Shown: positions 16,205 to 50,792 of the stretch, piece after piece
Layout of the letters: each line of letters starts with the position of its first letter
How positions within the stretch are numbered: the first letter of the stretch is position 1
Source of the DNA: a virus
DNA: 64,000 nt
Virus record (IMG/VR): IMGVR_UViG_3300042402_003388
Span: 1-64,000 of that record
Strand: one strand, 5' to 3'
Notes under the pieces: model-generated
Databases searched by the model: none
The model's input: the letters and a program-made list of their open reading frames with translations, nothing else
Told to the model about the DNA's origin: nothing
Translations under genes and position numbers: made by a program

Positions 16205-16993
16205 ATGGATAATAATAAAAAAATATTAGAGGAGATAAAAAGATTCCAGCAACTATCAAATATACAAGAATCTTCAATTAAAGAAGGGTTCATTGATGAT
16301 ATTATTGATTTAGGTTCTAAAGCCGTTGATACTGTATCTAAAACCGATTTAGTTAAAAAAATTAAATCATATATGTCAGATGATAAAAATGACAAGGAGG
16401 ATAATAGTGTGTTAAAAAAAATAAAAGATATTTTTAAAGGTACTGATTCGGAAGACGATATTGAAGATTTAGAGTTAGATAATATTAGTGAAAAAGGTCA
16501 AAAATTATTGGACAATGAAGTTTTCCAAGAAAAATTAGAAGAAATTTCAAAAGCGATAGACATTGACAAAAGTTCAATTATTAAGTTAATGAAACACGAA
16601 TCAGGTTTAGACCCTAAAATCAAAAATAGTATTGGTTGTGTTGGATTAATTCAATTCTGCCCTGGAGGAGGTTCAACTAAAACCGTAAATGGTAAAACAT
16701 ATACTTTAGACGAACTTGGGGACAACCTAAGTGTTCAGATGGACGCTATTAAAGATTTTTGGGTTAAAGGATATGAAAATGGTAAGATACAAAGTCCTGA
16801 GGATTTATACATTTATAATTTCTTCCCTGTTGCCGCTGGAAAACCAGATGATTTTGTGTTAAAAAGTAGTGGATTATCGGCAAAAACAGTTGCGAGAGCT
16901 AACCCAGTGTTTAATAGAGTGTTAGGCCAAGAGAATGACCAATTAACTGTTGGGGACCTCAAAAATTATTATAGAAAAACTGGAATGGTCTAA
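16205..16993 (+). CDS. Tagged lytic transglycosylase-like protein, 262 aa
   Basis: Residues 1-22 (ILEEIKRFQQLSNIQE, then S) are the second tag type, implying packaging in the virion and cleavage. Residues about 25-120 are a charged linker. Residues about 125-240 resemble an SLT-type lysozyme fold: IKLMKHESGLDPKIKNS with catalytic-type Glu in HESG, then GCVGLIQFCPGG, comparable to the G-x-x-GLMQ motif of Slt enzymes. This could locally open peptidoglycan during entry. A hairpin at the stop (ATGGTCTA/TAGACCAT) may terminate transcription. Confidence 0.75.
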   Translation: MDNNKKILEEIKRFQQLSNIQESSIKEGFIDDIIDLGSKAVDTVSKTDLVKKIKSYMSDDKNDKEDNSVLKKIKDIFKGTDSEDDIEDLELDNISEKGQKLLDNEVFQEKLEEISKAIDIDKSSIIKLMKHESGLDPKIKNSIGCVGLIQFCPGGGSTKTVNGKTYTLDELGDNLSVQMDAIKDFWVKGYENGKIQSPEDLYIYNFFPVAAGKPDDFVLKSSGLSAKTVARANPVFNRVLGQENDQLTVGDLKNYYRKTGMV

Positions 16994-17213: not shown

Positions 17214-19115
17214 ATGAAAAAACTCTTAGCGGTTGCCTCATTTCTATTAATGAGTGCAATCGGATTCTCTCAAACGTGTCCTACCCCGACCACAACAGGG
17301 GTCTTCGTTACGTTAGATTCAAACTACCAATTGGCACCGTCGGCGGCTGGTTTTACTAACGTAGGATTGTGTTTCTACAATAACACTACAACCCTAATCA
17401 CCGCGGCTCAATTCAGAGTATACTACGACAAACTTGCATTTTCAGGTGTTGACACAGTTACCTCATTAAACACATCGTATTCTCAGTATTTACAATATGT
17501 GGATAACCCCGCAAACGGATATGTAACAATTACATTATCTTATACGGGTAGTTTATCAACTTTTGAGATTCCTGACGGAGCGTTTGTACAATTAAAATTA
17601 CAACATATTACAGGATTCTCATCATTAACATCTGTTGGTAATATGTCGTTTAGTGGTGTAAACACATACCCTTCTATCTCTACAAGACAAGACGGTACTG
17701 ATAATACATTAACCTTACAAAACTTTGGTGGGGTTATGTTACCTCAGACATTTTCTTTTACAGGTACATTTACAAACGTTACAGGTACAGGGGCCAAAGA
17801 CTTAACAGTTGGTCTTGAGAAAAAACTTAGACCTAGTGGGTCTTGGACACCAGTAACAAGTACATTAACTAATACCTCAGGTGTCTTCGCATTTAACGAT
17901 ATTGCGGTCGATACTACAGGTTACGATGTTCGTATTAAAATTGTTGGAGATACTATGTCGGTAGGTAACGTTATCTCTACGGCAGATGCACAAAAAGTTA
18001 ATGACTATGTATTAGGTACTCAAACCCCAACAGGATTTGATTATTACGCGGCTGATGTTAACGGTGATAATAATATAACAATATCGGATGCTTATGGTGT
18101 ATTTGGTAGAATCTCAGGAAGATTCTCAGTTTGGCCAAACAGTGTTAAAGACGTTAAATTCTTTACATCCGCAGAATACACAACAATTAATGGTTCATCT
18201 ACGAATTACTTGTCATCAATTCCTGGTACTACAAACTTCACATTTAATATTATTGCGGGGGCACCTTCACCTACATTCTACGTGTTAGTTCCTGGTGACG
18301 CTAACGGTACAGGTTATCATATGGCTCGTGTTACACCAATTGAAGTGTTAATAAACCCACAACCTGGTGTTGAATCTCAAATTTATAATGTGATTGACAA
18401 TAGAGTTGAGTATGATTTCCCAACGACTTCGATTGAAGTTAATGTACCAAGATTATCAGTACAAGAAGGTAATTTAGTTAATATACCTGTAAAAGTTTTT
18501 ACAAGTGGTACTGACTTAGGTTCATTACAGTTTGGGTTAAAATATAATGATACATTATTGGAATTCAAAGGTATTGATTCTAAATCATCGGCTTCAAGTT
18601 GGTTAACATACTTAAATACTAACGATAACATTATTACTTGGGGTGGTTATGATAATAGTAATCATTTAAAACCTATACGTAACAACGATGAGGTGGTTAC
18701 TTTAAAATTTATAGCTAAACAACCACAAAATTTATGGGATGAAAGTCCTCTTTGGACTACAGATAAATTTGCTGGGGATAACCAATGTAAAGATTTGGAA
18801 ATAACCCCAACAAATGGAATTGTTCAAGTTTATAAAATGGTAAATGGACATATGACAGATGTTAATGGTATGATTGTTTACCCAAATCCGACTGAAGATT
18901 ACGTTACGGTTAAATTCGAAGTTAAAGAATATGGTAATGTTAGACTTTCGGTATACGGTGTTGATGGTAAGGAATATAAAGTAATGGTTAACGATAAAAT
19001 GCCTCAGGGCGATTATCAATACAGTACTAACTTAGGTTATCTACCTTCAGGTGTTTATATGGCGGTTCTTAAAAGAAGTGACATACAACTTACAAGTAAA
19101 ATTATTTTAAAATAA
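17214..19115 (+). CDS. T9SS-secreted cohesin/dockerin surface protein, 633 aa
   Basis: A signal peptide (1-19, cleavage GFS/Q) is followed by a cohesin-like beta-sandwich (about 28-165). Next come a second beta domain (180-245) and a dockerin-like Ca-binding pair (250-303, DVNGDNNITISDAYGVFGRI), then a further module with FFTSAEYTTI. A second cohesin-type domain spans about 408-540, and the C-terminal PNPTEDYVTVKFE...GVYMAVLK region (553-633) is typical of the type A sorting domain of type IX secretion. The product is predicted to cross the outer membrane via the host T9SS and be surface-attached or released. It heads a seven-gene envelope operon. Confidence 0.85.
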   Translation: MKKLLAVASFLLMSAIGFSQTCPTPTTTGVFVTLDSNYQLAPSAAGFTNVGLCFYNNTTTLITAAQFRVYYDKLAFSGVDTVTSLNTSYSQYLQYVDNPANGYVTITLSYTGSLSTFEIPDGAFVQLKLQHITGFSSLTSVGNMSFSGVNTYPSISTRQDGTDNTLTLQNFGGVMLPQTFSFTGTFTNVTGTGAKDLTVGLEKKLRPSGSWTPVTSTLTNTSGVFAFNDIAVDTTGYDVRIKIVGDTMSVGNVISTADAQKVNDYVLGTQTPTGFDYYAADVNGDNNITISDAYGVFGRISGRFSVWPNSVKDVKFFTSAEYTTINGSSTNYLSSIPGTTNFTFNIIAGAPSPTFYVLVPGDANGTGYHMARVTPIEVLINPQPGVESQIYNVIDNRVEYDFPTTSIEVNVPRLSVQEGNLVNIPVKVFTSGTDLGSLQFGLKYNDTLLEFKGIDSKSSASSWLTYLNTNDNIITWGGYDNSNHLKPIRNNDEVVTLKFIAKQPQNLWDESPLWTTDKFAGDNQCKDLEITPTNGIVQVYKMVNGHMTDVNGMIVYPNPTEDYVTVKFEVKEYGNVRLSVYGVDGKEYKVMVNDKMPQGDYQYSTNLGYLPSGVYMAVLKRSDIQLTSKIILK

Positions 19116-19183: not shown

Positions 19184-19522
19184 ATGTCAGAGGAAACAAA
19201 CGTACCTGAATCAGATGGAACTTGGTCAGGGTTAAAGAAAACAATCATCGGAACACTAACTACAGTAATTGCTGGAGGTGGGGTATGGGTATCAACAATG
19301 TTATTTGGAGGTCATTCAGAAGAAAAAGAAGAACCTAAAACTGAACAAACTGCGGCACCCGCACCAGTTATAGTTAACGTACAACAAAATCAAGAAAATA
19401 AACAAAAAGTTGAAAACGGTGGTGGTACTAACACAATCATTAAAGAACGTGTTATTGAAAAACCTGCGGCTCAGACAACTGAACCTGCTAAACCTGTTAA
19501 AAAAGAAGAGGAATCTTGGTAA
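19184..19522 (+). CDS. Single-pass membrane protein with Pro/Ala/Lys/Glu tail, 112 aa
   Basis: An N-terminal hydrophilic 15 residues, one transmembrane segment (about 18-42, IIGTLTTVIAGGGVWVSTML), then a long charged, Pro/Ala-rich extension, perhaps spanning the periplasm like a TonB-type linker. The stop codon overlaps the start of the CsgG-like gene (TAATG), so they are coupled. No family assigned. Confidence 0.7.
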   Translation: MSEETNVPESDGTWSGLKKTIIGTLTTVIAGGGVWVSTMLFGGHSEEKEEPKTEQTAAPAPVIVNVQQNQENKQKVENGGGTNTIIKERVIEKPAAQTTEPAKPVKKEEESW

Positions 19523-20238
19523 TGAAAAAGTTATTGTACACCCTACTACCCATAATATTACTTTCTTGTAAAGTTAGTGGTCAAATAGGAACGGTTAAAA
19601 CCGAACAGTATCAAGCGGATTTTGAAAAAAAACAATCCATATCTGTTGTGTCGGATTATACAGATACAATTGTAATTCCTATTCAGGTTCTTAAAATCGG
19701 AATCAATGAGGAATTATACTCTATGTACCCTGAACTTAAAGATAAAAGAGTCGGTTTAGGGGTGGCAAATATCGTTTTAGAATACTTGGAATCTACTGAT
19801 AGATTTAAATTTACTGAAGATAAAGAGGAAATTAAACAGAAAATGATTGCACAAGACAAAGCTTCTGATAAAGGAATTTCAAGTAACAAAATAGAGGTTA
19901 AGGGTAATGTAATCTTAGCCAAATATTTTGTTTATATCGAAGTGTATGACTTTTCAGTTTCTGAAGATGAGGTCGTTAAAGCGACTGATGGTGCTAAAAC
20001 AACTCAAACAACTCGTTTAGGGTTACAAGTTAGATTTGTGGATGCTGAGACAGGTGAAATCTACACAGGTAGTGGTTTAGGTGAAGCGTCAACGGTTAAA
20101 ACATCATCATTGTTGTCAGATGTTGAAGACATTAAATTTAATCAATCAACAATAGGTATTTCGACAAAAAAGGCTCTTGAAACGGCATCGTCAAGAGTTG
20201 TGTCAAAATTAATAAAAAAGGGTGTCTTTAAATCTTAA
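19522..20238 (+). CDS. CsgG-like outer-membrane secretion lipoprotein, 238 aa
   Basis: The lipoprotein signal has lipobox LLSC (Cys16). The mature part fits the CsgG family: VGLGVANIVLEYLESTDRFKF early, then FVDAETGEIYTGSGLGEA, and a C-terminal STIGISTKKALETASSRVVS. CsgG forms a nonameric outer-membrane channel that exports curli subunits, and length agrees (about 240-270 in the family). Neighbours are a membrane protein, an outer-membrane barrel and secreted proteins, consistent with an envelope secretion or surface-display module. Confidence 0.8.
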   Translation: MKKLLYTLLPIILLSCKVSGQIGTVKTEQYQADFEKKQSISVVSDYTDTIVIPIQVLKIGINEELYSMYPELKDKRVGLGVANIVLEYLESTDRFKFTEDKEEIKQKMIAQDKASDKGISSNKIEVKGNVILAKYFVYIEVYDFSVSEDEVVKATDGAKTTQTTRLGLQVRFVDAETGEIYTGSGLGEASTVKTSSLLSDVEDIKFNQSTIGISTKKALETASSRVVSKLIKKGVFKS

Positions 20239-20592: not shown

Positions 20593-22188
20593 ATGAACAT
20601 TAAGAAAATTTTATTAACACTAAGTTTTCTGTTCACAACATTAATGGTATTTGGACAGGGGTTTTCGTATACATATACGGACCCCTGTACTAATAAAATT
20701 AAAGAACTTTTCATTAATAACCCTAATGGAAATATTGCCTTAATGTATTATGGTCAGGTGCAAAGTTTTACCCCAACTCAATTACAATCAGGTGCCTTGG
20801 AGCAATGGATTACTCAAATTAATTCATCAAATCCTTCAGGACCTTGTAGTGGTGTTGCGTTATACCAAAATACGACAATGAATGCAATTATAGCTGCAAA
20901 TAATATTGCGGTACTAACTAATGTCCTATCGGCATTAAGTGACATATCATCAATGGGAGGAGCCAATATTGGGGGTATTGTTGAAGCTAAGGAAAAATCT
21001 AATTCCGAAGACGGTAAAACAAAACCTAAAGAAGGTCAATCAACCAACGGAGGGACAACTCAAAATAACTCTCAAAATACAGGTTCTCAGGGGTCTAATC
21101 CCCAAACAACCAACGGAACAACCAACGGAAATCCAATCCAAAATGGTGGTTCTAACGGTCAAACAACCTCAAATTCGGGGTCATCGACCATTAACAATCA
21201 AACACAAAATAATGGTACCACAAATAACAATGGAGGAGGTTCAGTTACTTCTGGAGGAAATCAAACGAACTCGCAATCACAAACAAGTAATGGAACTAAC
21301 CAAAACTCTGGAGGAGGTAATTCAGGTCAAGGAACAACAACATCAACAACAGGAGGAAACACTACAAATACAGGTAACTCACCTCAAGGAGGAGGTCAAA
21401 CGACTCAATCATCTGTAACAACGTCTAATGGTGGGGGTTCCCAAGGTTCAGGAGGAAATACTACTAACAATGGAAATGAAAAACCAAATGAGGATAAGTT
21501 AAATGATATGACTAAAACCTCATCATCTAATTCATCTCAAGTTAAATCTAAAGTTGCCAATGCAAAACAAGGTGGAATTTTATTAACGGGTGATATTGTT
21601 GCGATTAGCAGTGCGTCGGGTGAAGAGGCTCAACAGTTTAGGGTTAATATGAGTTTAACAAAATCAAATACGGATAACACATTTGTTAGAGGTGCTTTAC
21701 TTAATTTTACCAGTTCTATTAACAATTCAAATATTACCTTTTTTGCGGGATACCGAAGAAAAAACTTAACATCGATTATAGCCAATTCATCGATGTTAAA
21801 CTTTGAAAAAGATTTTTTCAATACAACCTCAATAATGGAATCTTATAAATATAAAAATATTACAGGTACTTTAGGGGTTAATTACACCACAGGTAATTTA
21901 GGTTCCGCGAGATTCCAAAGTTTATCCGCATTAGGGGGATTAATTGGTACTTTTAAAGTTACAAAAAAAATAAATAACACAACTATGTTAGTATTTGTAT
22001 ATTCACCATATGTATATTATTATGAAGGGTTGTGGTACGAATCAGGATGGTTGGCGGTACCATTCACTGCGTTTGATTATCGAATAAGTAGTAAATTTAA
22101 ATTAAATTTAAGTTTCAGTGGGGTTCAACAAGTCAAAGACGCCACATTAAATTACCAAGTATTACTTGGGGCTAAAGCTTTATTATAA
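20593..22188 (+). CDS. Outer-membrane barrel protein with Gln/Asn/Gly/Ser/Thr-rich region, 531 aa
   Basis: A signal peptide (1-21, VFG/Q) precedes a globular N-domain to about 120. A roughly 190-residue low-complexity segment (about 135-320) dominated by Gly, Asn, Gln, Ser and Thr follows. The C-terminal ~190 residues show alternating hydrophobic strands with aromatic ends (ITFFAGYRRKNL, GTLGVNYTTG, LVFVYSPYVYYYEG), typical of an outer-membrane beta-barrel. The composition of the middle resembles curli-like or prion-like polar sequences, notable beside a CsgG homologue. Confidence 0.75.
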   Translation: MNIKKILLTLSFLFTTLMVFGQGFSYTYTDPCTNKIKELFINNPNGNIALMYYGQVQSFTPTQLQSGALEQWITQINSSNPSGPCSGVALYQNTTMNAIIAANNIAVLTNVLSALSDISSMGGANIGGIVEAKEKSNSEDGKTKPKEGQSTNGGTTQNNSQNTGSQGSNPQTTNGTTNGNPIQNGGSNGQTTSNSGSSTINNQTQNNGTTNNNGGGSVTSGGNQTNSQSQTSNGTNQNSGGGNSGQGTTTSTTGGNTTNTGNSPQGGGQTTQSSVTTSNGGGSQGSGGNTTNNGNEKPNEDKLNDMTKTSSSNSSQVKSKVANAKQGGILLTGDIVAISSASGEEAQQFRVNMSLTKSNTDNTFVRGALLNFTSSINNSNITFFAGYRRKNLTSIIANSSMLNFEKDFFNTTSIMESYKYKNITGTLGVNYTTGNLGSARFQSLSALGGLIGTFKVTKKINNTTMLVFVYSPYVYYYEGLWYESGWLAVPFTAFDYRISSKFKLNLSFSGVQQVKDATLNYQVLLGAKALL

Positions 22189-22189
22189 A

Positions 22190-22642
22190 ATGAAAACATT
22201 ATTATTAATTACATTGGCAACTTTAATGTCAATAACATCTTACTCTCAGTCGTGTTTTACTGTTAAAAGTGTTCAAACTAAAGACAGTATTCAAGGGATT
22301 AGCCCTAAACGATTCACATTGGGGGTAAAACAAATAACTGAAGAGGTATTATCTGAAAAATATTCTATATGTGAAGACGGGAAACCTGTTTCAGTTGTGA
22401 TTGAAAGTATTGAGGCTCCTACTACAGGTATCTCAATAGGTCCGTTCGAGAAAAAAAGAAAGGTTACTATAGTAACATTAAAAGTGACTATCGACAATAA
22501 AGATTACATTGGTGTTGGGGAGAGTAAAATTGATGTCAAATCAACTTTTATTGAATTACAAGATGAAAATATACCATTTGAAAAATCTTCATTTTCGGCA
22601 GGTTTGAAAAAGGCTTTAATTAATGCGGTTAATAAAATCTAA
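22190..22642 (+). CDS. Secreted small protein of envelope operon, 150 aa
   Basis: A signal peptide (1-19, SYS/Q), then a mature domain of about 130 residues with alternating strands (PVSVVIESIEAP, KVTIVTLKVTIDNKDYIGVGES) and a final helix. The layout is reminiscent of small periplasmic partners of CsgG systems, but similarity to CsgE/CsgF is not clear by eye. The start at 22190 is 1 nt after the upstream stop, and the 3' end overlaps the lectin gene by 20 nt. Confidence 0.7.
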   Translation: MKTLLLITLATLMSITSYSQSCFTVKSVQTKDSIQGISPKRFTLGVKQITEEVLSEKYSICEDGKPVSVVIESIEAPTTGISIGPFEKKRKVTIVTLKVTIDNKDYIGVGESKIDVKSTFIELQDENIPFEKSSFSAGLKKALINAVNKI

Positions 22643-24320
22643 GGTTAGAAACATAATATTTGTTTTGGTTTTGTTCTTCACAAATGTTGTTGTGGGGCAA
22701 AATTTTACTTATTCGGGGTATATCTACAATTCAAATGGGGTTGGGGCTTCAAATGTCCCTGTGAGATTATATAAAAGAACGACTCCATCATTAAACGGAT
22801 TTACATCCCAAACCAACTATAATGGACACTCATATTATCGTTCAACAGGTTCAATGTTTTGGTTAGACGCAAAAACCGCTTGTGAAAATATGAACGGTCA
22901 TTTAGCGACAATCTCAGATGTTTCCGAGAGAAATTTTCTTTTTAACACTTGGCCTTCAGGGTGGATAGGATATTATCAAGATAAAACAGGTCCCTTTTTT
23001 TCAGAACCTTTAGGTGGGTGGAGATGGACCGAAAATTATGTAACCGCAACTCAAACTAATAATTACGATGTTAGTAGTTATAGTTCAGGTAGTGTTTTAA
23101 CTGATTTAAAAAATTCAAAAAATATTACATTATATAATTCGCCAGTCCTTACTACAGGTGGTGGAAAATACCTAACATTTAATGGTGTTAATACCTATGG
23201 GATTACACCAAGTTTAACAAGTCATTTCACAAATTCAAACGTAATCACATTAGTACTATGGGTGTACCCAACAGGAAATGGTGTTATATTAAGTGAATTA
23301 GGAATCCCATCACCATCTTCAGGATGGCACGAATCTGTGGTCGAGATTACTGGTGGTAATACATTAAGATGTGGTTTTTGGAATGGTACGGGAATTACTC
23401 AAATATCTACAAGTATTACGTTAAATCAGTGGTGTATGATAGCATTAACCTATAATGGGTCGACAATGACAGGATATAGAAATGGAGTGTCTTTTGGTAG
23501 TACAACATTTAGTAGATTTAGTCCTCATTTAAATGGTGGTGGAGACCAAATTTTTGCGTTAGGATTAACTGATGCGACTAATATGGGTCACGGTGGATAT
23601 GGTTCTTTCAGATTAGGTGCGTTCCAAGTGTATAATACTTCTTTAACTTCAGATGAAATAAATAGAAATTATATGTCATTATCTTACAGGTTTGGTATAA
23701 ATCCATATCTATCGTGGAATGGTGGAGAACCGAATAATTCAGGAACTGAGGATTACGCTCAATTTGTTGGAGGTGGTCTATGGAACGACTTACCTAATAA
23801 TGTTTCGTTACCTTATGTACTTGAATTTGATTATATCGTTACCTTTACTCCTTGGGTATTATTTAAAACCGTGTATACGGATTTTACAGGTAAATACACA
23901 ATTAATGAATCCACCAACCCATCAGTTGAGTGGTATATTCAATTAGACGCTCCTACCACAATTACAGGTCTACAAAATATTGATGCAATAGCGGCGTCCA
24001 CAAAGGCAATAAGTAGGTCCTTCACTTCTTTAGATTATTATAAGTACGATGTTAATAATGATGGTAATATTACGGTATCTGACGAGTATTATATTTTTAT
24101 GAAAAAGAATGGAAGGTTTTCAAGTTGGGGTCCCTCTTTACCGAGCGTTAGATTATTTACTTCATCCCAATTTTCAATAATTAATTCGTCGACTAATGAC
24201 TTAAGAAGTACTTATCCTGGTGTTCAAAGTATAACTATATCAACACCAACCAATGGAGGTAGTTCAAATTATTATTTAATTAATACGGGGTATTCTAATA
24301 GTACTATTTTAGGGTATTAA
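22623..24320 (+). CDS. Secreted lectin with nested domains and dockerin-like module, 565 aa
   Basis: A signal peptide (about 8-25) precedes a beta-sandwich start (FTYSGYIYNSNGVGASNVPV) that is interrupted at about residue 65 and resumes near 405 (YTDFTGKYTINE). Within it is a C-type lectin domain split into an N-half (WLDAKTACENMNGHLATISD) and a C-half (WNGGEPNNSGTEDYAQFVGG, WNDLP). Between those halves lies a LamG/concanavalin-like domain (about 160-350). A dockerin-like Ca-binding segment (472-499, DVNNDGNITVSDEYYIF) and a short tail follow, matching the module order of the 633-aa protein. No T9SS sorting domain is present. Confidence 0.8.
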   Translation: MRLIKSKVRNIIFVLVLFFTNVVVGQNFTYSGYIYNSNGVGASNVPVRLYKRTTPSLNGFTSQTNYNGHSYYRSTGSMFWLDAKTACENMNGHLATISDVSERNFLFNTWPSGWIGYYQDKTGPFFSEPLGGWRWTENYVTATQTNNYDVSSYSSGSVLTDLKNSKNITLYNSPVLTTGGGKYLTFNGVNTYGITPSLTSHFTNSNVITLVLWVYPTGNGVILSELGIPSPSSGWHESVVEITGGNTLRCGFWNGTGITQISTSITLNQWCMIALTYNGSTMTGYRNGVSFGSTTFSRFSPHLNGGGDQIFALGLTDATNMGHGGYGSFRLGAFQVYNTSLTSDEINRNYMSLSYRFGINPYLSWNGGEPNNSGTEDYAQFVGGGLWNDLPNNVSLPYVLEFDYIVTFTPWVLFKTVYTDFTGKYTINESTNPSVEWYIQLDAPTTITGLQNIDAIAASTKAISRSFTSLDYYKYDVNNDGNITVSDEYYIFMKKNGRFSSWGPSLPSVRLFTSSQFSIINSSTNDLRSTYPGVQSITISTPTNGGSSNYYLINTGYSNSTILGY

Positions 24321-24390: not shown

Positions 24391-25212
24391 ATGTTATTAA
24401 AAAAAGGTTCTAAAGGTGAAGACGTAAAAAAATTACAATCAAAATTAGGTCTTGTCGCTGATGGAGATTTCGGTCCTGGTACTGAAACAAAAGTTAAAGA
24501 ATGGCAAGCGGCAAACGGTTTAACTGCAGATGGTATCGTAGGTGACGGTACTTGGGGTAAAATGTTTGCGGGAGAAGTCATTAAAGAAGACGTGGTAATC
24601 CCAACGGGAGGACCATTAAAATTAGAAAAATTAAAAGGTCATATTCCTGACGCGGTAATCGCTCAAATTCCTGAGACTGCTGCTAAATTCAATATTACAA
24701 CACCATTAAGATTAGCCCATTTCTTGGCACAATGTGGTCACGAATCAGGAGGTTTTAAGGCGGTTAGTGAGAATGTAAACTATTCTGCAGATGGTCTTAA
24801 AAAAATATTTGGGAAGTACTTCCCTGGTAATTTGGCAGAGTCTTACGCAAGACAACCTGAAAAAATTGCATCTCGTGTTTACGGGGGTAGAATGGGTAAC
24901 GGTGACGAAGCGTCAAAAGAAGGGTTTAAATTCCGTGGAAGAGGCTACATCCAATTAACTGGAAAATCAAACTATACAAACTTTGCCAAGTTTATTGGTG
25001 AGGATACTGTGGCAAATCCTGATTTGGTTGCAACTAAATACCCATTAGCATCTGCGGCGTTTTTCTTTGACTCAAATAAACTTTGGTCTATTTGTGATAA
25101 AGGTGCTGACGAAGCGACAGTAACTGCGGTGACTAAAAGAGTGAATGGTGGGACTATTGGATTAGTCGATAGATTAAAACATTTTAAAGAATATTATTCA
25201 CTTTTAGCATAA
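24391..25212 (+). CDS. Endolysin: peptidoglycan-binding plus GH19 domain, 273 aa
   Basis: Residues 1-65 are a PG_binding_1 domain (GSKGEDVKKLQSKLG, DGDFGPGTETKVKEWQ). Residues about 85-273 are a glycoside hydrolase 19 lysozyme/chitinase-type catalytic domain with GHESGGFKAVSENVNYSADG (catalytic Glu pair) and FRGRGYIQLTGKSNY. It cleaves peptidoglycan glycan strands at lysis. No signal peptide, so a holin is needed; the small membrane proteins at 12897 and 49980 are candidates. Confidence 0.9.
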   Translation: MLLKKGSKGEDVKKLQSKLGLVADGDFGPGTETKVKEWQAANGLTADGIVGDGTWGKMFAGEVIKEDVVIPTGGPLKLEKLKGHIPDAVIAQIPETAAKFNITTPLRLAHFLAQCGHESGGFKAVSENVNYSADGLKKIFGKYFPGNLAESYARQPEKIASRVYGGRMGNGDEASKEGFKFRGRGYIQLTGKSNYTNFAKFIGEDTVANPDLVATKYPLASAAFFFDSNKLWSICDKGADEATVTAVTKRVNGGTIGLVDRLKHFKEYYSLLA

Positions 25213-45564: not shown

Positions 45565-45636
45565 GGTCCCTTCGTCTATCGGTTAGGACATATCCCTTTC
45601 ACGGATAAAAGACGGGTTCGATTCCCGTAGGGACTA
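45565..45636 (+). tRNA. tRNA-Glu(TTC)
   Basis: Loop CTTTCAC; T arm ACGGG-TTCGATT-CCCGT; first gene of array 1. Confidence 0.9.
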
Positions 45637-45657
45637 CAAAACTTAAAAAATATTATT

Positions 45658-45921
45658 ATGCCAGAATTTAACACTTATGTTGATGTAGACGTTTACGAAT
45701 TTATTGATGAATGTTCAAAAAGTGAAATTAATGAGTTAATTGACGATTTAATTGATAGGGGTTACTTAAACAAAAATAGTAAAGGGGTTGGTAAACCACC
45801 GAAATATTCATTAATTGAGGAAACTCATAGAGATTATTGTGATGTTTTGGCGAATTCTTACCATAGAATGAGTAAGGAAGACGAAGAAACAATCGCGAAT
45901 ATTGCTAAAAAATATTCGTAA
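45658..45921 (+). CDS. Small acidic hypothetical protein, 87 aa
   Basis: A protein-coding gene inside the tRNA array. The N-terminal half is helical and acidic (VYEFIDECSKSEINELIDDL); GKPPKYSLIEE resembles winged-helix or anti-activator surfaces, but no family is assigned. It lies between tRNA-Glu and tRNA-Ala, so it is probably on the same transcript. Confidence 0.7.
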   Translation: MPEFNTYVDVDVYEFIDECSKSEINELIDDLIDRGYLNKNSKGVGKPPKYSLIEETHRDYCDVLANSYHRMSKEDEETIANIAKKYS

Positions 45922-45928
45922 TAAAAAT

Positions 45929-46002
45929 GGGGGTGTATGTCTCAAGGCCGACGAGAATGATTTGCAATCAATCTGGGGTGAGTTCGATTCTCACCATCTC
46001 CA
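45929..46002 (+). tRNA. tRNA-Ala(TGC), divergent
   Basis: Acceptor GGGGGTG/CATCTCC, loop TTTGCAA, T arm intact. The D arm (TGTC...GACG) and anticodon stem (one A-A mismatch) deviate from consensus. Confidence 0.75.
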
Positions 46003-46005
46003 CAA

Positions 46006-46097
46006 TGTTATCATAGCTCAGTAGGATGAGGCCGCAATCGGATTCCTTTAAACAACGCGTGAGGGGCGGCTTTCACGATGTGGCTGAAGTGATAACA
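46006..46097 (+). ncRNA. tRNA-like element without T loop
   Basis: A perfect 8-bp closing helix TGTTATCA/TGATAACA and a tRNA-type D arm (TAGCTCAG...GAG) surround GCCGC/GCGGC and CTTCA/TGAAG helices. No GTTCGA T loop and no clear anticodon are present. It may be a decayed tRNA or a tRNA-mimicking RNA processed by RNase P. Confidence 0.55.
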
Positions 46098-46107
46098 AAT
46101 AATATAT

Positions 46108-46179
46108 CGCGGGATAGAGCAGTGGTAGCTCGCAAGGCTCATAACCTTGAGGTCGGGGGTTCGAATCCCTCTCCCGCAA
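46108..46179 (+). tRNA. Initiator tRNA-fMet(CAT)
   Basis: Position 1 C is opposite A72 (CGCGGGA/TCCCGCA), the hallmark of initiator tRNA. The D arm GAGCAGTGGTAGCTC is fMet-like. The loop CTCATAA reads CAT, but the anticodon stem is CAAGG/CCTTG rather than three G-C pairs. Confidence 0.8.
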
Positions 46180-46188
46180 CTAATATAT

Positions 46189-46262
46189 CGTGGGTTAGAC
46201 TGGAGGTGGTTCCAGCTTGGTCTCATAAGCCAAAGACGGGGGTTCGAGTCCCTCACCCGCAA
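46189..46262 (+). tRNA. Second tRNA-Met(CAT) with C1-A72 mismatch
   Basis: Acceptor CGTGGGT/ACCCGCA also has C1 opposite A72; loop CTCATAA. The D arm is unusual (GACTGG...CCAGC). It is preceded by the same TAATATATCG string as the initiator tRNA, suggesting duplication. Confidence 0.7.
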
Positions 46263-46340
46263 CAAAGTGTCTCGGTCCGCTCTGACGAAAGTTAACGACG
46301 AGGTCTCGGTAGACAGAACGCGTCTGATTCTACCCAAAAT
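46263..46340 (+). other. Spacer with a strong hairpin
   Basis: GGTAGA-CAGA-ACGCG-TCTG-AT-TCTACC forms a long hairpin near 46309-46335; TCTCGGT occurs twice. No gene is recognised. Confidence 0.4.
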
Positions 46341-46413
46341 GCGAGAGTAGCTCAGTTGGTAGAGCACAACCTTGCCAAGGTTGGGGTCGCGGGTTCGAAT
46401 CCCGTCTCTCGCT
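46341..46413 (+). tRNA. tRNA-Gly(GCC)
   Basis: Acceptor GCGAGAG/CTCTCGC, loop TTGCCAA. Confidence 0.92.
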
Positions 46414-46422
46414 CAATAATAA

Positions 46423-46495
46423 GCGGATATCGTATAATGGCTTATTACTTCAGCCTTCCAAGCTGAAGATGTGAGTTCGATTCTCACTATCCGCT
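46423..46495 (+). tRNA. tRNA-Gly(TCC)
   Basis: Acceptor GCGGATA/TATCCGC, loop CTTCCAA. Confidence 0.92.
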
Positions 46496-46500
46496 CAAAA

Positions 46501-46573
46501 GGTCCCGTGGTTGAATGGTTACAATTCCACCCTGTCACGGTGCGAGGTACGGGTTCGAATCCCGTCGGGACCG
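46501..46573 (+). tRNA. tRNA-Asp(GTC)
   Basis: Acceptor GGTCCCG/CGGGACC, loop CTGTCAC. Confidence 0.92.
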
Positions 46574-46581
46574 CAAACTTT

Positions 46582-46653
46582 GGTCTATTCGTTCATCGGC
46601 TAGGATGCTACCCTGTCACGGTAGTGAGGAGGGTTCGATTCCCTCATAGACCG
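46582..46653 (+). tRNA. tRNA-Asp(GTC), second copy
   Basis: Acceptor GGTCTAT/ATAGACC, loop CTGTCAC; diverged from the neighbouring Asp gene outside the anticodon loop. Confidence 0.92.
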
Positions 46654-46683
46654 CAAAAATAAATTAATTTATACTTATTGAGT

Positions 46684-46842
46684 ATGGATAAAGAAAAATG
46701 GGATTCTGATGAATGGCAAGGGCGTTCTAAAGACAGGGTCGAAAAAAACAATAAAGTTTTTGGATACTCTATATTACTTACAATACTTGGTACAGTAATT
46801 TGTTATTTATACGTCATAATATCCACTTATTTTAGATTTTGA
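46684..46842 (+). CDS. Small single-pass membrane protein, 52 aa
   Basis: A hydrophilic N-terminus (MDKEKWDSDEWQGRSKDRVE) is followed by one transmembrane helix (about 28-47) and a short tail. Found within the tRNA region; not recognised. Confidence 0.6.
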   Translation: MDKEKWDSDEWQGRSKDRVEKNNKVFGYSILLTILGTVICYLYVIISTYFRF

Positions 46843-46874
46843 TTTGTTATTTCGTAAAAAATTTACTAAATTTG
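46843..46874 (+). promoter_or_regulatory. Host-type promoter
   Basis: TTTG (46843-46846), N20, TAAATTTG (46867-46874). Confidence 0.6.
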
Positions 46875-46892
46875 TAGTGTAAATAAAATATT

Positions 46893-47069
46893 ATGTGGGT
46901 AATTGTAAAATTAATGGAAAGTCTTAATGGTGTTAAAGTTCCTGTCATTATCTTAGATGGACACTCAGAAATTTGGGAATTTGAAACTGAAGAAGAGGCG
47001 GTTAAAATGAGAGACATTTTTTCTAAAAACTCGGACTCAGGTCACGTTTACTTAGTTAAAAAAGTCTAA
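46893..47069 (+). CDS. Small hypothetical protein, 58 aa
   Basis: A compact beta-alpha-beta layout: WVIVKLMESLNGVKVPVIIL, then an acidic helix (FETEEEAVKMRDIF) and a final strand (GHVYLVKKV). Probably real: it has a host-type promoter and lies just upstream of tRNA-Arg. Function unknown. Confidence 0.65.
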   Translation: MWVIVKLMESLNGVKVPVIILDGHSEIWEFETEEEAVKMRDIFSKNSDSGHVYLVKKV

Positions 47070-47074
47070 CAAAT

Positions 47075-47148
47075 GGTTCCGTAGCTCAGCTGGATAGAGC
47101 AACTGCCTTCTAAGCAGTAGGTCACAGGTTCGAATCCTGTCGGGACTA
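47075..47148 (+). tRNA. tRNA-Arg(TCT)
   Basis: Loop CTTCTAA; acceptor GGTTCCG/CGGGACT. Confidence 0.9.
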
Positions 47149-47163
47149 CTAAATTAAAAAATT

Positions 47164-47418
47164 ATGGTTGATATTAATCAAGATATTGTATTTGAGGAAG
47201 AACATAATGAGTTTATTAAAAGTGAGTTATTCTGTCAAATGATGAAAGAAAAAATAGAACATTCTGCGTATCATAAATTTGATGGTATTGCACCTGAAGG
47301 ATTTACGTTGGTACCAAATGAGGTGTTAGAAGAACTTAAGGACTTTGACAATTGGAAGGAGTTTAAATACGATTTAGAATGGATTAAGAAAAATTCTATA
47401 AAGTATTTGGTAGTTTAA
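47164..47418 (+). CDS. Hypothetical protein, 84 aa
   Basis: Small, acidic, helical, with a conserved-looking turn FDGIAPEGFTLVPNEVLEEL. Sits between tRNA-Arg and a lipoprotein gene. Not recognised. Confidence 0.7.
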   Translation: MVDINQDIVFEEEHNEFIKSELFCQMMKEKIEHSAYHKFDGIAPEGFTLVPNEVLEELKDFDNWKEFKYDLEWIKKNSIKYLVV

Positions 47419-47435
47419 CTTATAAAAAATAATAT

Positions 47436-47714
47436 ATGAAAAAATTTGCACCATACGTATTAGTACTTATTTGGTTTTTAGTTATTGGGTTATTGGCGTT
47501 CTTATTGACAGGATGTAAAAATAAGAATAAAATAGAACCTGGTGATAAAGTAGTTAAATGTGTAATTGATAGTGTTTCAACTGAAGGACCTCGTTCAACT
47601 ATTGAACCGTATGTAAGATATTATTACTATACCAAATGTGGTGAAAGACTTATTACCAATCGAGATGACATTTACAAAATTGGGGACACGATAACTTACG
47701 TATATAAAAAATAA
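47436..47714 (+). CDS. Lipoprotein, 92 aa
   Basis: The N-terminal hydrophobic segment ends in LLTGC, a lipobox (Cys27), so the product is membrane-anchored. The mature part is a small beta domain (PGDKVVKCVIDSV, RYYYYTKCGERLI) with two more Cys. It may modify the host envelope; function unknown. Confidence 0.7.
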   Translation: MKKFAPYVLVLIWFLVIGLLAFLLTGCKNKNKIEPGDKVVKCVIDSVSTEGPRSTIEPYVRYYYYTKCGERLITNRDDIYKIGDTITYVYKK

Positions 47715-47719
47715 AATAA

Positions 47720-47792
47720 GCCTCCTTAGCTCAGCTGGTAGAGCACTTCACTTGTAATGAAGGGGTCGTAGGTTCGAATCCTACAGGAGGCT
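47720..47792 (+). tRNA. tRNA-Thr(TGT)
   Basis: Acceptor GCCTCCT/AGGAGGC, loop CTTGTAA. Confidence 0.92.
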
Positions 47793-47798
47793 CAAATT

Positions 47799-47872
47799 GG
47801 TCCTTTAGCTCAGTTGGTTAGAGCAGCTCACTCATAATGAGAAGGTCACAGGTTCAAGTCCTGTATGGACCA
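47799..47872 (+). tRNA. tRNA-Met(CAT), elongator type
   Basis: Acceptor GGTCCTT/ATGGACC, loop CTCATAA, fully paired position 1-72. Confidence 0.85.
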
Positions 47873-47893
47873 CAAATATCTAAAAACACAAAT

Positions 47894-48061
47894 ATGCAAC
47901 TTATATTCAATATTATCGCAACAATTGTATTCCTAATCTTTGGGATTATATGGAGTAAGAAAACGTTCACAGACATTATAGCCAAAATAATTTGTCTTGG
48001 TTTATCCATTTTAGGAATTATTCTAATTTTGATACAATGCGGGTATATTATTAAAAAATAG
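47894..48061 (+). CDS. Small two-helix membrane protein, 55 aa
   Basis: Two hydrophobic helices (about 3-20 and 28-50) joined by a basic loop (SKKTFTD). ATG 47894 is chosen because earlier in-frame starts lie within tRNA-Met. Not recognised. Confidence 0.6.
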   Translation: MQLIFNIIATIVFLIFGIIWSKKTFTDIIAKIICLGLSILGIILILIQCGYIIKK

Positions 48062-48064
48062 TCA

Positions 48065-48072
48065 TATATTTG
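48065..48072 (+). promoter_or_regulatory. Host-type -7 box, leaderless
   Basis: TATATTTG ends 4 nt before ATG 48077; a -33 match is weak. Confidence 0.5.
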
Positions 48073-48076
48073 TACT

Positions 48077-48352
48077 ATGAAAAGTTACCTGATTATTAGA
48101 GAGGATTATTTTAATGAAAAAGGAATTGGTAACAATACTCATTTCTGTATTAAAGAATCTAAAAAATTTTTATGGTTTGAATGGTGGTCGTACGTGAAAT
48201 ACAAAGAATGTTACGAAAGTGGTTCATATAACACTGTTTTAAAGTTCACTAATTTATATGAAGCAGAAAAATTTGTTAATGAAGTTTTGTTAAAAAACGG
48301 ACCAAGACAAAAATGGTCATCTATGACCCTAAAAGAAATAAAAGAAAAATGA
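48077..48352 (+). CDS. Hypothetical protein, 91 aa
   Basis: Aromatic-rich centre (KKFLWFEWWSYVKYKECYES) and charged C-terminus. Leaderless behind a host-type -7 box; overlaps the next gene by 4 nt (ATGA), so they are coupled. Not recognised. Confidence 0.7.
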   Translation: MKSYLIIREDYFNEKGIGNNTHFCIKESKKFLWFEWWSYVKYKECYESGSYNTVLKFTNLYEAEKFVNEVLLKNGPRQKWSSMTLKEIKEK

Positions 48353-48936
48353 AAACGATATTTTTAGACCACGATGGAGTAATCTGTTTATCCACAGAGT
48401 GGGGTGGTCGTTACAAGAAACAAAAAAAATGGGGAGAACTTAAAATGTCTATGGGGATGAATGAAATCCCTATTGAATTTAGATTTGACAATTTTAATAA
48501 GAAGGCAATCAAAATTCTGAATTCAATTATTGAAGAAACTGGTGCTGAGATAGTAGTTTCATCTGATTGGAAACGATGGGCAACTGTTGAGGAAATGGGA
48601 CAATACTACGAATCTCAAGGGATTATCAAAAAACCAATCTCATTTACTCCAAACTTAAGTGAATGTAATAACTATGATGGTTCATTTCCTTGGAATAGAG
48701 ATTGGGATTTAGAACAAACTCGTACATTAGAAATTAACCAATATTTGAAGGACCATCCTGAGGTGACAGAATGGGTTGCAATCGATGACCTTAATATGGG
48801 AAAAGAGGGGATGTCATATTCAATTAAATGGGTTCACGATTGGGGTTTAGATAATTTTGTACTAACACCAAAAGGTAATGAAGGGTTAAAACAATCAGGA
48901 ATTAAAGAAAAAGTTTTATCTTTTTTAATAAAATAA
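48349..48936 (+). CDS. HAD-like hydrolase (SAK-type), 195 aa
   Basis: IFLDHDGVICL is HAD motif I with DxD as DHDGV; GAEIVVSSDWKRW supplies motif II, and VAIDDLN the late acidic motif. The pattern with SSDWKR is that of the HAD domains found in Swiss-army-knife RNA repair proteins. A role trimming 3' phosphates in tRNA repair with the RNA ligase is plausible but inferred. Confidence 0.8.
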   Translation: MKTIFLDHDGVICLSTEWGGRYKKQKKWGELKMSMGMNEIPIEFRFDNFNKKAIKILNSIIEETGAEIVVSSDWKRWATVEEMGQYYESQGIIKKPISFTPNLSECNNYDGSFPWNRDWDLEQTRTLEINQYLKDHPEVTEWVAIDDLNMGKEGMSYSIKWVHDWGLDNFVLTPKGNEGLKQSGIKEKVLSFLIK

Positions 48937-48943
48937 AAAAATA

Positions 48944-48974
48944 TTTGACAATTACGGAATTTTTCGTAACTTTG
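48944..48974 (+). promoter_or_regulatory. Host-type promoter of tRNA array 2 leader
   Basis: TTTG (48944-48947, within TTTGACA), N19, TAACTTTG (48967-48974). Confidence 0.75.
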
Positions 48975-49019
48975 TAGTAATTATAGAAACAGGTAGAAAT
49001 ACCACAACAAATAGAAAAA

Positions 49020-49130
49020 ATGAAAAACACTAATAAACATATGAACGTCGTGATTTGGAAACAACAATTTAGTAATTGTTCGTATCCGCGTATTTCGCAT
49101 ACAAGTTCAGTTGATGAAGGTTTAGTGTAA
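49020..49130 (+). CDS. Leader peptide 2 of tRNA array, 36 aa
   Basis: MKNTNKH, then MNVVIWKQQFSNCSYPRISH, then TSSVDEGLV. Residues 8-27 contain exactly 14 amino acids (M N V I W K Q F S C Y P R H), the same 14 as the tRNAs encoded from 49237 to 52375, and none of Ala, Asp, Glu, Gly, Leu or Thr. AGTTCAG (49104-49110, codons 29-31) can pair with the terminator's left arm. Codons include rare-residue Trp and Cys. It is proposed as a ribosome-stalling sensor; translation is not proven. Confidence 0.65.
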   Translation: MKNTNKHMNVVIWKQQFSNCSYPRISHTSSVDEGLV

Positions 49131-49195
49131 TGTAAATAAAATAACATACAACAAATATCTCAAGTCCTGAACTCAAAAAGTTCAGGATTTTTTTT
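49104..49195 (+). terminator. Attenuator: terminator with competing antiterminator
   Basis: The terminator is CCTGAACT (49166-49173)/AGTTCAGG (49179-49186) plus a long T-run. The antiterminator is AGTTCAG (49104-49110)/CTGAACT (49167-49173). A pause-type hairpin AACAATT/AATTGTT lies inside the ORF at 49063-49080. Confidence 0.75.
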
Positions 49196-49206
49196 TGTTA
49201 TAAAGT

Positions 49207-49223
49207 GTTCTTTGACATATTGG
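49207..49223 (+). promoter_or_regulatory. boxA-like element before array 2
   Basis: GTTCTTTGACATATTGG, between the attenuator and tRNA-Pro. Confidence 0.6.
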
Positions 49224-49236
49224 TAAGAAAAGTAAA

Positions 49237-49308
49237 CGGGGTGTAGTCTCGAGGAGAGACGCGTGTTTTGGGAACACGAGGCGGCAGGTTCGACTCCTGT
49301 CACCCCGA
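49237..49308 (+). tRNA. tRNA-Pro(TGG)
   Basis: Acceptor CGGGGTG/CACCCCG, loop TTTGGGA. Confidence 0.92.
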
Positions 49309-49314
49309 CTATAT

Positions 49315-49388
49315 TGTCACATAGCTCAGTTGGTTAGAGCGTTCGCCTGATACGCGAAAGGTCGATGGTTCGAGTCCATCTGTGACAA
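49315..49388 (+). tRNA. tRNA-Ile(GAT)
   Basis: Acceptor TGTCACA/TGTGACA, loop CTGATAC. Confidence 0.92.
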
Positions 49389-49394
49389 CTTAAT

Positions 49395-49469
49395 GTCTTC
49401 GTAGCTCAGTTGGTTTAGAGCACCTCACTTTTAATGAGGGAGTCACAGGTTCGAGTCCTGTCGGGGACA
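49395..49469 (+). tRNA. tRNA-Lys(TTT)
   Basis: Acceptor GTCTTCG/CGGGGAC, loop CTTTTAA. Confidence 0.92.
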
Positions 49470-49475
49470 CAATAT

Positions 49476-49547
49476 GGTCGGTTGGCCGAGTGGCTTAGGC
49501 GATAGTCTGCAAAACTATCTACACAGGTTCGATTCCTGTACCGACCT
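49476..49547 (+). tRNA. tRNA-Cys(GCA)
   Basis: Acceptor GGTCGGT/ACCGACC, loop CTGCAAA. Confidence 0.92.
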
Positions 49548-49552
49548 CAAAT

Positions 49553-49626
49553 ACGTCTGTAGCTCAGTTGGTAGAGCACTGGTCTCCAAAACCAGGTGTC
49601 GGTGGTTCGAATCCATCCAGGCGTGC
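49553..49626 (+). tRNA. tRNA-Trp(CCA)
   Basis: Acceptor ACGTCTG/CAGGCGT, loop CTCCAAA. Confidence 0.92.
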
Positions 49627-49629
49627 AAT

Positions 49630-49703
49630 GACTCAGTAGCTCAGGGGTTTAGAGCAGTTGACTGTTAATCAACGGGTCGTAGGTTCGATTCCTACCTGGG
49701 TCG
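49630..49703 (+). tRNA. tRNA-Asn(GTT)
   Basis: Acceptor GACTCAG/CTGGGTC, loop CTGTTAA. Confidence 0.92.
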
Positions 49704-49712
49704 CAATAGGTT

Positions 49713-49801
49713 GATTAGGGAATGATTGTACTGATAGTTCGAGAGTGAATACTGACTAGTACAATCGGAGTTTGCAGGTATTCACCCGAGTAATGCTAAT
49801 C
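49713..49801 (+). ncRNA. Pseudoknotted RNA element inside tRNA array
   Basis: An outer helix GATTAG (49713)/CTAATC (49796) encloses two interleaved helices: GATTGTACT (49724-49732)/AGTACAATC (49758-49766), 9 bp, and GTGAATAC (49745-49752)/GTATTCAC (49778-49785), 8 bp. Order a-b-a'-b' is an H-type pseudoknot. No ORF is seen. It lies between tRNA-Asn and tRNA-Tyr. Confidence 0.75.
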
Positions 49802-49803
49802 GT

Positions 49804-49838
49804 AAAAACAGATGTCCACTGAACCATCTTCTGTTTTC
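49804..49838 (+). terminator. Terminator-like hairpin within array
   Basis: AAAACA-GATG/CATC-TTC-TGTTTT with a short T-run; it could end or attenuate transcription before tRNA-Tyr. Confidence 0.45.
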
Positions 49839-49845
49839 CTAAATT

Positions 49846-49926
49846 GGGAGTGTTGAGCAACGGTTGCTTAGCTGACTGTAAATCAGTGGTCTTACGACAT
49901 TGGGGGTTCGAATCCCTCCACTCCCA
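49846..49926 (+). tRNA. tRNA-Tyr(GTA)
   Basis: Acceptor GGGAGTG/CACTCCC, loop CTGTAAA, long variable arm. Confidence 0.92.
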
Positions 49927-49929
49927 CAA

Positions 49930-49962
49930 AATAAAAAAGGGGATATAAATCCCCTCTTTTTC
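49930..49962 (-). terminator. Terminator (minus strand, weaker on plus)
   Basis: GGGGAT/ATCCCC followed on the minus strand by T6; serves the holin-like gene and perhaps also ends array 2a. Confidence 0.7.
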
Positions 49963-49979
49963 GATTAGGTCGTTATCAA

Positions 49980-50144
49980 TTATTTCTGTTTAGCAATAAT
50001 TGACCATACACCACCAACTAATGTAACTGCAGCTCCGATAAGTTCTTGAACTGTTGAATCAGTTGCAAGACCTTTCATAATCAGGATACCACCCACAAAA
50101 GTAAGTGCGTGTCTAACGATACCTTGGATTTGTTCTTTAGTCAT
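49980..50144 (-). CDS. Small holin-like membrane protein, 54 aa
   Basis: MTKEQIQGIVRHALTFVGGI with one or two hydrophobic segments (about 10-25 and 34-50) separated by a short polar turn (GLATDSTVQEL), and a basic end. The pattern resembles the Pam3-gp28-type putative phage holins. It would act with the GH19 endolysin. The start at 50144 follows a late box on the minus strand. Confidence 0.7.
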   Translation of the reverse strand: MTKEQIQGIVRHALTFVGGILIMKGLATDSTVQELIGAAVTLVGGVWSIIAKQK

Positions 50145-50175
50145 TATAAATTTGATTAAAGGTTTATGCCAGACT

Positions 50176-50182
50176 ATAAATA
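50176..50182 (-). promoter_or_regulatory. Late-type TATTTAT box (minus strand)
   Basis: ATATTTATAGTC on the minus strand, 31 nt before start 50144. Confidence 0.45.
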
Positions 50183-50200
50183 TTGGAAAAACGGTCAAAC

Positions 50201-50271
50201 TGTCCTTTCGTCTAATGGCAGGACACGTGGTTTTGGTCCACGCGGTGGAGGTTCGAATCCTCCAGGGACAA
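50201..50271 (+). tRNA. tRNA-Gln(TTG)
   Basis: Acceptor TGTCCTT/AGGGACA, loop TTTTGGT. Confidence 0.9.
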
Positions 50272-50274
50272 CAA

Positions 50275-50320
50275 GGGGTTAGGTGGAAACCCAAGAGTAG
50301 GTGATGAGTCTACGTCCACC
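50275..50320 (+). ncRNA. Small pseudoknot between tRNAs
   Basis: GGGTT (50276-50280)/AACCC (50288-50292) and GGTGG (50282-50286)/CCACC (50316-50320) interleave as a pseudoknot; the long connecting loop holds a GTAG/CTAC hairpin. Confidence 0.55.
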
Positions 50321-50325
50321 AAAAT

Positions 50326-50397
50326 ACCGATGTAGCTCAGTGGTAGAGCACTTCTTTCATACGGAAGGTGTCGGAAGTTCAATTCTTCCCATCGGTA
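50326..50397 (+). tRNA. tRNA with CAT anticodon (Met or lysidine-type Ile2)
   Basis: Acceptor ACCGATG/CATCGGT, loop TTCATAC. The CAT anticodon may be Met, or Ile after C34 modification; sequence alone does not decide. Confidence 0.85.
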
Positions 50398-50403
50398 CTT
50401 AAC

Positions 50404-50478
50404 AGTTCCTTAGCTCAGTTGGTTTAGAGCACTTCTTTTACACGGAAGGGGTCGTAGGTTCGAATCCTACAGGGACTA
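50404..50478 (+). tRNA. tRNA-Val(TAC)
   Basis: Acceptor AGTTCCT/AGGGACT, loop TTTACAC. Confidence 0.9.
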
Positions 50479-50485
50479 CAAAATG

Positions 50486-50522
50486 CCAAACTCGGTAGTA
50501 AAACACGTCCAAACTCGGTAGT
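50486..50522 (+). promoter_or_regulatory. Two 14-bp direct repeats, candidate operator
   Basis: CCAAACTCGGTAGT at 50486-50499 and 50509-50522 (23-bp period, about two helical turns), just upstream of a host-type promoter. Confidence 0.6.
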
Positions 50523-50533
50523 TTTAAAAAAAG

Positions 50534-50565
50534 TTTGGTGAATTGAAAAATGTTTCATACCTTTG
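50534..50565 (+). promoter_or_regulatory. Host-type promoter of third tRNA unit
   Basis: TTTG (50534-50537), N20, TACCTTTG (50558-50565). The transcript would begin near a 10-bp hairpin GGGGGGTAGG/CCTACCCCCC (50580-50616). Confidence 0.7.
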
Positions 50566-50633
50566 TATTCACAAACAACGGGGGGTAGGAGTTAGTAAGT
50601 CGGTGGCCTACCCCCCCTGAGACAAGATAGAAA

Positions 50634-50645
50634 GTTCTTTGAATT
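50634..50645 (+). promoter_or_regulatory. boxA-like element
   Basis: GTTCTTTGAATT, downstream of the promoter and hairpin and before the Phe unit. Confidence 0.5.
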
Positions 50646-50653
50646 AAAATACT

Positions 50654-50786: not shown

Positions 50787-50792
50787 ATACTT

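Follow-up and report, generated by a model that had tools for sequence, protein, structure and literature searches.

The window, i.e. the whole stretch of 64,000 nucleotides analysed, is part of a virus record of 100,550 bases (IMGVR_UViG_3300042402_003388), and it carries at positions 22623-24320 of the + strand an intact open reading frame that encodes a lectin of 565 residues, P0001. The lectin gene and its surroundings contain the following features:

17214..19115, + strand: 633-residue partner, with a cohesin-like N-terminal part, a sandwich (residues 178-241), a dockerin-like part (253-294), a cohesin (407-538) and a tail (555-631)
19522..20238, + strand: conserved operon gene of 240 residues, with a lipobox-like start by our own reading, strongly conserved and with 539 relatives in viral contigs
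20593..22188, + strand: conserved operon gene of 531 residues, read by us as exported, with a signal peptide and a long low-complexity linker rich in Ser, Asn and Gly
22190..22642, + strand: conserved operon gene, exported by our own reading, overlapping the start of the lectin gene by 20 bases
22623..22697, + strand: signal peptide of the lectin, residues 1-25, a hydrophobic N-terminus after which the mature protein starts at Gln26
22698..22781, + strand: first strands of the outer beta-sandwich, residues 26-53, from model strands and hhalign
22797..23033, + strand: first half of the C-type lectin domain (CTLD), residues 59-137, from positions 3-68 of the Pfam Lectin_C profile and PDB matches
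23040..23693, + strand: LamG or ConA-like jelly-roll in the long loop of the CTLD, residues ~140-357, from Laminin_G_3, AlphaFold and VIA-align
23703..23834, + strand: second half of the CTLD, residues 361-404, with EPN...E...WND as candidate calcium/sugar site, from PDB matches
23841..23960, + strand: middle strands of the outer beta-sandwich, residues 407-446, from model strands and hhalign
23961..24107, + strand: helical segment resembling a dockerin, with a single calcium loop at D476-D487, from helices in the model and the conserved loop
24228..24287, + strand: C-terminal strands, residues 536-555, which probably finish the sandwich, from model strands and structural matches
24391..25212, + strand: endolysin (PG_binding_1 and Glyco_hydro_19), downstream of the lectin

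The window also holds 29 predicted tRNA genes, 26 of which form a dense array at 45565-52376. The window comes from a phage of Flavobacterium-type bacteria. Its closest cultured relatives are four records of Flavobacterium phage immuto (laboratory host Flavobacterium sp. LMO8), which are the sole matches to the lectin among 50,697 phage records, and the 633-residue partner and two tested operon neighbours likewise match just these four. The immuto counterpart, gp013 of vB_FspM_immuto_2-6A (YP_010114425.1, annotated 'lectin C-type domain-containing protein'), shares the signal peptide, the sandwich, the CTLD in the same loop, the dockerin-like segment and the C-terminus with P0001 but is without LamG, and its operon resembles that of the window in having a cohesin protein and gp016-gp018, although the cohesin partner is divided into gp014 and gp015. 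Further relatives stem from an IMG/VR scan (28 loci), from profile scans (216 and 118 relatives, 80 of each kept) and, later, from an operon-neighbour scan (539 relatives in viral contigs, 80 kept). Before that last scan, 93 distinct full-length proteins gave 76 clusters at 93% identity, 44 without LamG and 32 with it, which together with the window protein make up the set of 77 used below; Pfam finds Lectin_C in all 77 and Laminin_G_3 in 33.

In P0001 Laminin_G_3 matches residues 189-347 with an E-value of 7.9e-13 and a score of 49.2 against a cut-off of 27.6, and Lectin_C matches residues 78-145 (26.6 against a cut-off of 22.6) with only positions 3-68 of its 107. Searched against PDB sequences, animal C-type CRDs align by their first half with residues 64-137 and, independently, by their second half with residues 364-402 (DC-SIGN-like domains). 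Such separate matches on either side of the LamG are the mark of one CTLD that is split by it. The residues E369, P370, N371, E376, N388 and D389 are invariant in all 77 proteins, and EPN, E and ND are the residues that form the sugar site at calcium 2 in mannose-type CRDs. C87 is likewise kept in 77 of 77, but it is the sole invariant cysteine in an alignment of 20 rows, so the canonical disulfides are absent and the domain is best regarded as a relative of the CTLDs and not as a canonical animal CRD. Indeed the two halves and the EPN, E and WND residues align with those of DC-SIGN, langerin and CD23, whereas the LamG in the long loop, the position of the whole domain within a sandwich and the single conserved cysteine set P0001 apart. 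It therefore seems fairly probable from these motif residues that the CTLD binds sugar, and the word lectin, under which the earlier note had described the protein, is justified as far as the motif goes.

An AlphaFold model of P0001, made from a 19-row alignment and with a pLDDT of 74.8, is confident for the LamG and for the sandwich strands at 26-53 and 412-442. The strands comprise 26-36 and 46-53 (pLDDT about 90), 412-418, 424-431 and 435-442, and towards the C-terminus 536-540, 544-547 and 550-554, while the dockerin-like helices span 452-463, 469-475 and 485-495. VIA-align of this model lists LamG-like jelly-rolls alone, domain 4 of AbnA being the best (Z 21.0, rmsd 2.5, 189 residues aligned); the jelly-rolls found include clostridial neurotoxin binding domains, but these share the fold only and no functional link is drawn. 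A second model, of the LamG-less relative L030 and made from 77 rows, has a scaffold mostly above 90 and a CTLD mostly below 60. It matches the sandwiches of transthyretin, SdrD-B and the SpaA pilin with Z-scores of 4.9-7.4 over 81-102 aligned residues, and these matches span model residues about 23 to 324, i.e. from the first strand to the last. The likeness to these CNA-B-like domains is weak and may extend to the strand arrangement throughout, whereas the sandwich of P0001 differs in having one or two large insertions, and a transthyretin activity is not implied. Foldseek on the L030 model does list C-type CRDs, but at TM-scores below 0.36 and rmsd values from about 11 upwards, and these matches are thus based on sequence.

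The outer nest, i.e. the splitting of the beta-sandwich, is seen by comparison with the 633-residue partner, whose sandwich is uninterrupted, as had been noted. In hhalign with profiles from the 77 relatives, the N-terminal piece (residues 26-58) aligns to residues 178-205 of the partner with an E-value of 3.2e-8 and the C-terminal piece (403-446) to residues 207-241 with one of 1.6e-11, so the two targets are adjacent and do not overlap. Joining the pieces lowers the E-value to 2.1e-16, and adding the dockerin part brings it to 9.3e-44. The scores of 36.6 and 52.7 for the N- and C-terminal pieces compare with maxima of 16.3 and 18.3 in 100 column shuffles per piece. As a further control the second half of the CTLD alone scored 23.2 against the partner sandwich (probability 53%), more than any shuffle reached yet less than either of the real pieces, and neither the first half of the CTLD nor the LamG gave any hhalign match to this sandwich. 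As the strands that precede the dockerin-like helices supply only ~63 residues, this sandwich should also include the last strands, which makes the dockerin-like helices a probable second insertion. The protein thus probably involves four domains and not the three that had been counted. The nesting itself and the boundaries proposed for it hold, the latter within a few residues.

Both nestings are demonstrated by natural variants. The spacing between the GWIG and GEPN motifs takes two discrete states, one in the 20s and the other of 250-281 residues, and in the LamG-less L030 the CTLD is continuous, Lectin_C being matched over positions 5-104 of 107 with an E-value of 1.3e-16 and a score of 61.7. 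Six proteins, namely five GEVED proteins and L320, have an empty socket, the N-strand and C-part profiles in the four displayed being 3 (L326), -2 (L318), 8 (L322) and 6 (L320) residues apart; an extra domain is placed N-terminally instead (GEVED, or a CTLD in L320), and one of the empty-socket relatives matches TTR-52. L320 (10195-12483) is itself a relative of 763 residues in which the CTLD is N-terminal while the socket is empty, so that the same kind of head is joined differently. The existence of empty, one-level and two-level relatives shows both nestings, and we regard as highly likely an anatomy in which the LamG sits in a CTLD and the CTLD in a loop of the sandwich, with the head exchangeable. 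One might alternatively imagine three sequential domains, in which two CTLD-like fragments flank the LamG by chance and the sandwich is separate, and the fact that the CTLD halves of P0001 are modelled at a pLDDT below 50 could be taken to agree with this. The continuous CTLD of LamG-less relatives, the empty sockets and the alignment of the sandwich pieces all speak against such an arrangement, which strikes us as very improbable: if the relatives in question are genuine, the series that they form has refuted it already. Structure prediction, the check that the earlier note had put forward, did not show three sequential domains, but the AlphaFold result for P0001 speaks neither for nor against the inner nest. 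That P0001 should be an assembly chimera or an annotation artefact is an idea for which we found no point in favour, and since there are 40 distinct proteins with CTLD and LamG across metagenome contigs and a copy 92% identical to P0001 in locus L024, its probability is next to nil.

The nested LamG is only one of several fillings. Among 141 distinct scaffold proteins, 59 carry a CTLD, 40 a CTLD with LamG and 10 a PA14 domain (five plain and five with an extra N-terminal domain; Pfam E-values from 1e-5 to 5e-13), six are empty, 19 have an unclassified head and two another unclassified head, and the remaining five are fragmentary or without an N-strand match. The first unclassified head is found at 4149-5414 of L194, where a gene for 422 residues lies beside a CTLD gene and combines the same scaffold with an unrelated head. 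Of the 36 loci fetched as relatives of this protein, four are of the CTLD and LamG type and match through the scaffold, and among the 32 loci L214-L245 a CTLD head is also present in L214 alone, which is on the same contig as L194. The operon order at the loci with the unclassified head is largely that of the CTLD loci. This head (L194, L216-L245) is conserved, measures about 150-200 residues and occupies the socket where the CTLD otherwise sits; Pfam gives no match for the head itself, and a PDB profile search with it yielded nothing convincing.

The exchange can also be followed among close relatives. On a tree of 45 rows made without the LamG columns the LamG state needs at least six changes, six being forced by the starred branches, and none of 500 shuffles of that state gave a count as low as six. 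This tree leaves out loci spelling GWFG and others, as well as the short L110; the motif filter yielded no open reading frame for 19 loci, of which six of the GWFG type were inspected. For pairs with a C-part DNA identity above 0.70, nucleotide identity in the first half of the CTLD is 0.80 in 173 same-type pairs compared to 0.58 in 16 cross-type pairs, and since the mean backbone identity is 0.78 in both groups, the whole CTLD has been replaced and not the LamG alone. In the four pairs shown, identity drops past residue ~75 and returns from ~405-421. A head swap between L220 and L105 gives a similar picture, the scaffold DNA being 87% (C-terminal) and 84% (N-terminal) identical while the heads share 29 of 113 residues. 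We can conclude that one loop of the sandwich is a socket, and that close relatives swap heads on a scaffold, and in an operon, that do not change.

As to where the LamG was acquired, a bacterial search is informative. The CTLD-LamG-CTLD segment is matched in 22 of 395 genomes of the sampled order, although none of the 22 matches all three parts in one place. Nine loci with a match to the first half were inspected, and in eight the second half directly adjoins the first, while the ninth, L207, has no match to the second half. The bacterial CTLDs inspected are of the SEP..GGW.W subtype, which is the subtype used with LamG, and as eight of the nine are continuous the LamG would have entered the long loop of that subtype. 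The occurrence of the same subtype in the sampled order could also suggest that the phage gene is a moron, i.e. a bacterial cargo gene that alters host surface or adhesion for the benefit of the host and has no phage-specific role. Such an origin is however made improbable by the conservation of the whole operon in phage contigs, and the scaffold part is unmatched in the 395 genomes of the order, an empty result that alone shows nothing.

The likely destination of the lectin is suggested by its N-terminus and its partner. The residue that follows the signal peptide is Gln in 74 of 77 relatives and Ala in three, in agreement with the Q-rule of Bacteroidetes, by which Gln follows the signal peptide (PMC5837995, PMC10653852), and this supports the claim that the protein is secreted. 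The partner scores 42 against a cut-off of 24.1 with the Pfam cohesin profile, and its tail is recognised as a T9SS type A sorting signal by both TIGR04183 (30.6 bits against 23) and PF18962 (44.3 against 27). Partner parts are found in 62 of the 77 loci, the other 15 reaching less than 2.8 kb upstream of the lectin, and eight records searched over their full length each contain a single lectin gene along with a single gene, or part of a gene, for the partner. The lectin itself has no Por_Secre_tail in any of the 77 members scanned. From the signal peptides with Gln and the cohesin and T9SS tail of the partner we consider it likely that the lectin leaves the infected cell, and the partner probably carries it to the surface. 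With its T9SS type A tail, cohesin and dockerin-like parts, the partner may also polymerise on the surface.

The segment by which the lectin would dock is called dockerin-like and not a type I dockerin, as it has one calcium loop and not two repeats and as L030 scores 15.4 against 22.9, although Pfam Dockerin_1 is seen at E-values up to 0.1 in 34 of 77 relatives. The loop positions are strongly conserved, D476 and D487 in 77 of 77, N478 in 76 and D480 in 75. Like the cohesin-dockerin pairs of cellulosomes, the putative phage pair has a cohesin above the Pfam cut-off and a dockerin-like loop, here in both lectin and partner, but it is phage-borne, no enzymes are seen on the scaffold and the dockerin has one calcium loop.

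The protein of 240 residues gives a CsgG match at an E-value of 0.025 in one of 17 relatives, a weak hint, and no convincing relative in a PDB profile search. The C-terminal part of the protein of 531 residues looks like an outer-membrane barrel, though the protein has no Pfam family and no convincing PDB match, and in 66 of 77 loci the lectin has a homologue of the gene at 22190..22642 in its vicinity.

An alternative worth considering is that the lectin is part of the virion, a fibre tip or decoration with a head that binds the host receptor. A PHROGs search at an E-value of 0.01 gave no family for P0001 itself, but 13 of the 77 relatives have a match to phrog_8510, whose name is 'virion structural protein', and 5.6 kb upstream lies a gene (16205-16993) with matches to baseplate hub and SLT profiles; furthermore, receptor-binding proteins typically change their heads and keep the base. 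A virion role is nevertheless in poor agreement with a signal peptide that has Gln at +1 in nearly all relatives, with a partner that has a T9SS tail and a cohesin, and with the fact that the same operon in immuto adjoins replication and nucleotide genes, and we hold it to be unlikely. The explanation we favour is a phage-encoded exported adhesin whose base is constant while its head can be exchanged. The base consists of the beta-sandwich and the dockerin-like helices, encoded in a conserved operon. The lectin would be exported by Sec, after which its dockerin-like segment would dock on the cohesin of the T9SS-tailed partner, so that it could be displayed on the infected host or shed from it. 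The head may bind sugar with calcium, the LamG may add a second binding surface, and a change of head would then mean that a different glycan is bound. More generally, and with some reserve, Bacteroidota phages may encode a socketed display system, in which an exported sandwich hub is docked by cohesin and dockerin to a T9SS-sorted scaffold and glycan-binding heads are recombined at the loop ends, giving the infected cell or released progeny a sugar specificity chosen by the phage. As for its purpose, masking receptors against superinfection or binding cells or progeny to polysaccharide is a still more speculative suggestion, and we found no known system where such heads serve a phage.

Nested domains, CTLDs, LamG, PA14 and the exchange of heads are all already known singly. 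Searches of open PMC texts gave nothing on a phage C-type lectin with a cohesin or on LamG with a C-type lectin in phages and Bacteroidetes, and nothing on point for a nested CTLD, for cohesin or dockerin with a lectin, or for phages and T9SS. The combination of an internal socket, a series of empty, filled and doubly filled states and an exported phage protein was found in no paper by these searches. In adhesins and receptor-binding proteins it is terminal domains that are known to be exchanged as heads while the base stays constant, whereas here the exchange takes place within a folded domain, and living examples of the empty, one-level and two-level states allow it to be traced, which makes the family a natural test bed for domain insertion. 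The findings further suggest that phages use the type IX route of the host to deliver lectins to the exterior of the infected cell; the searches of open PMC texts gave no description of such a role. The same operon, in which the lectin is split between two reading frames, is also seen on a contig of a 'Sphingomonadaceae' MAG (L112, 1-8788), which is probably a misbinned phage contig.
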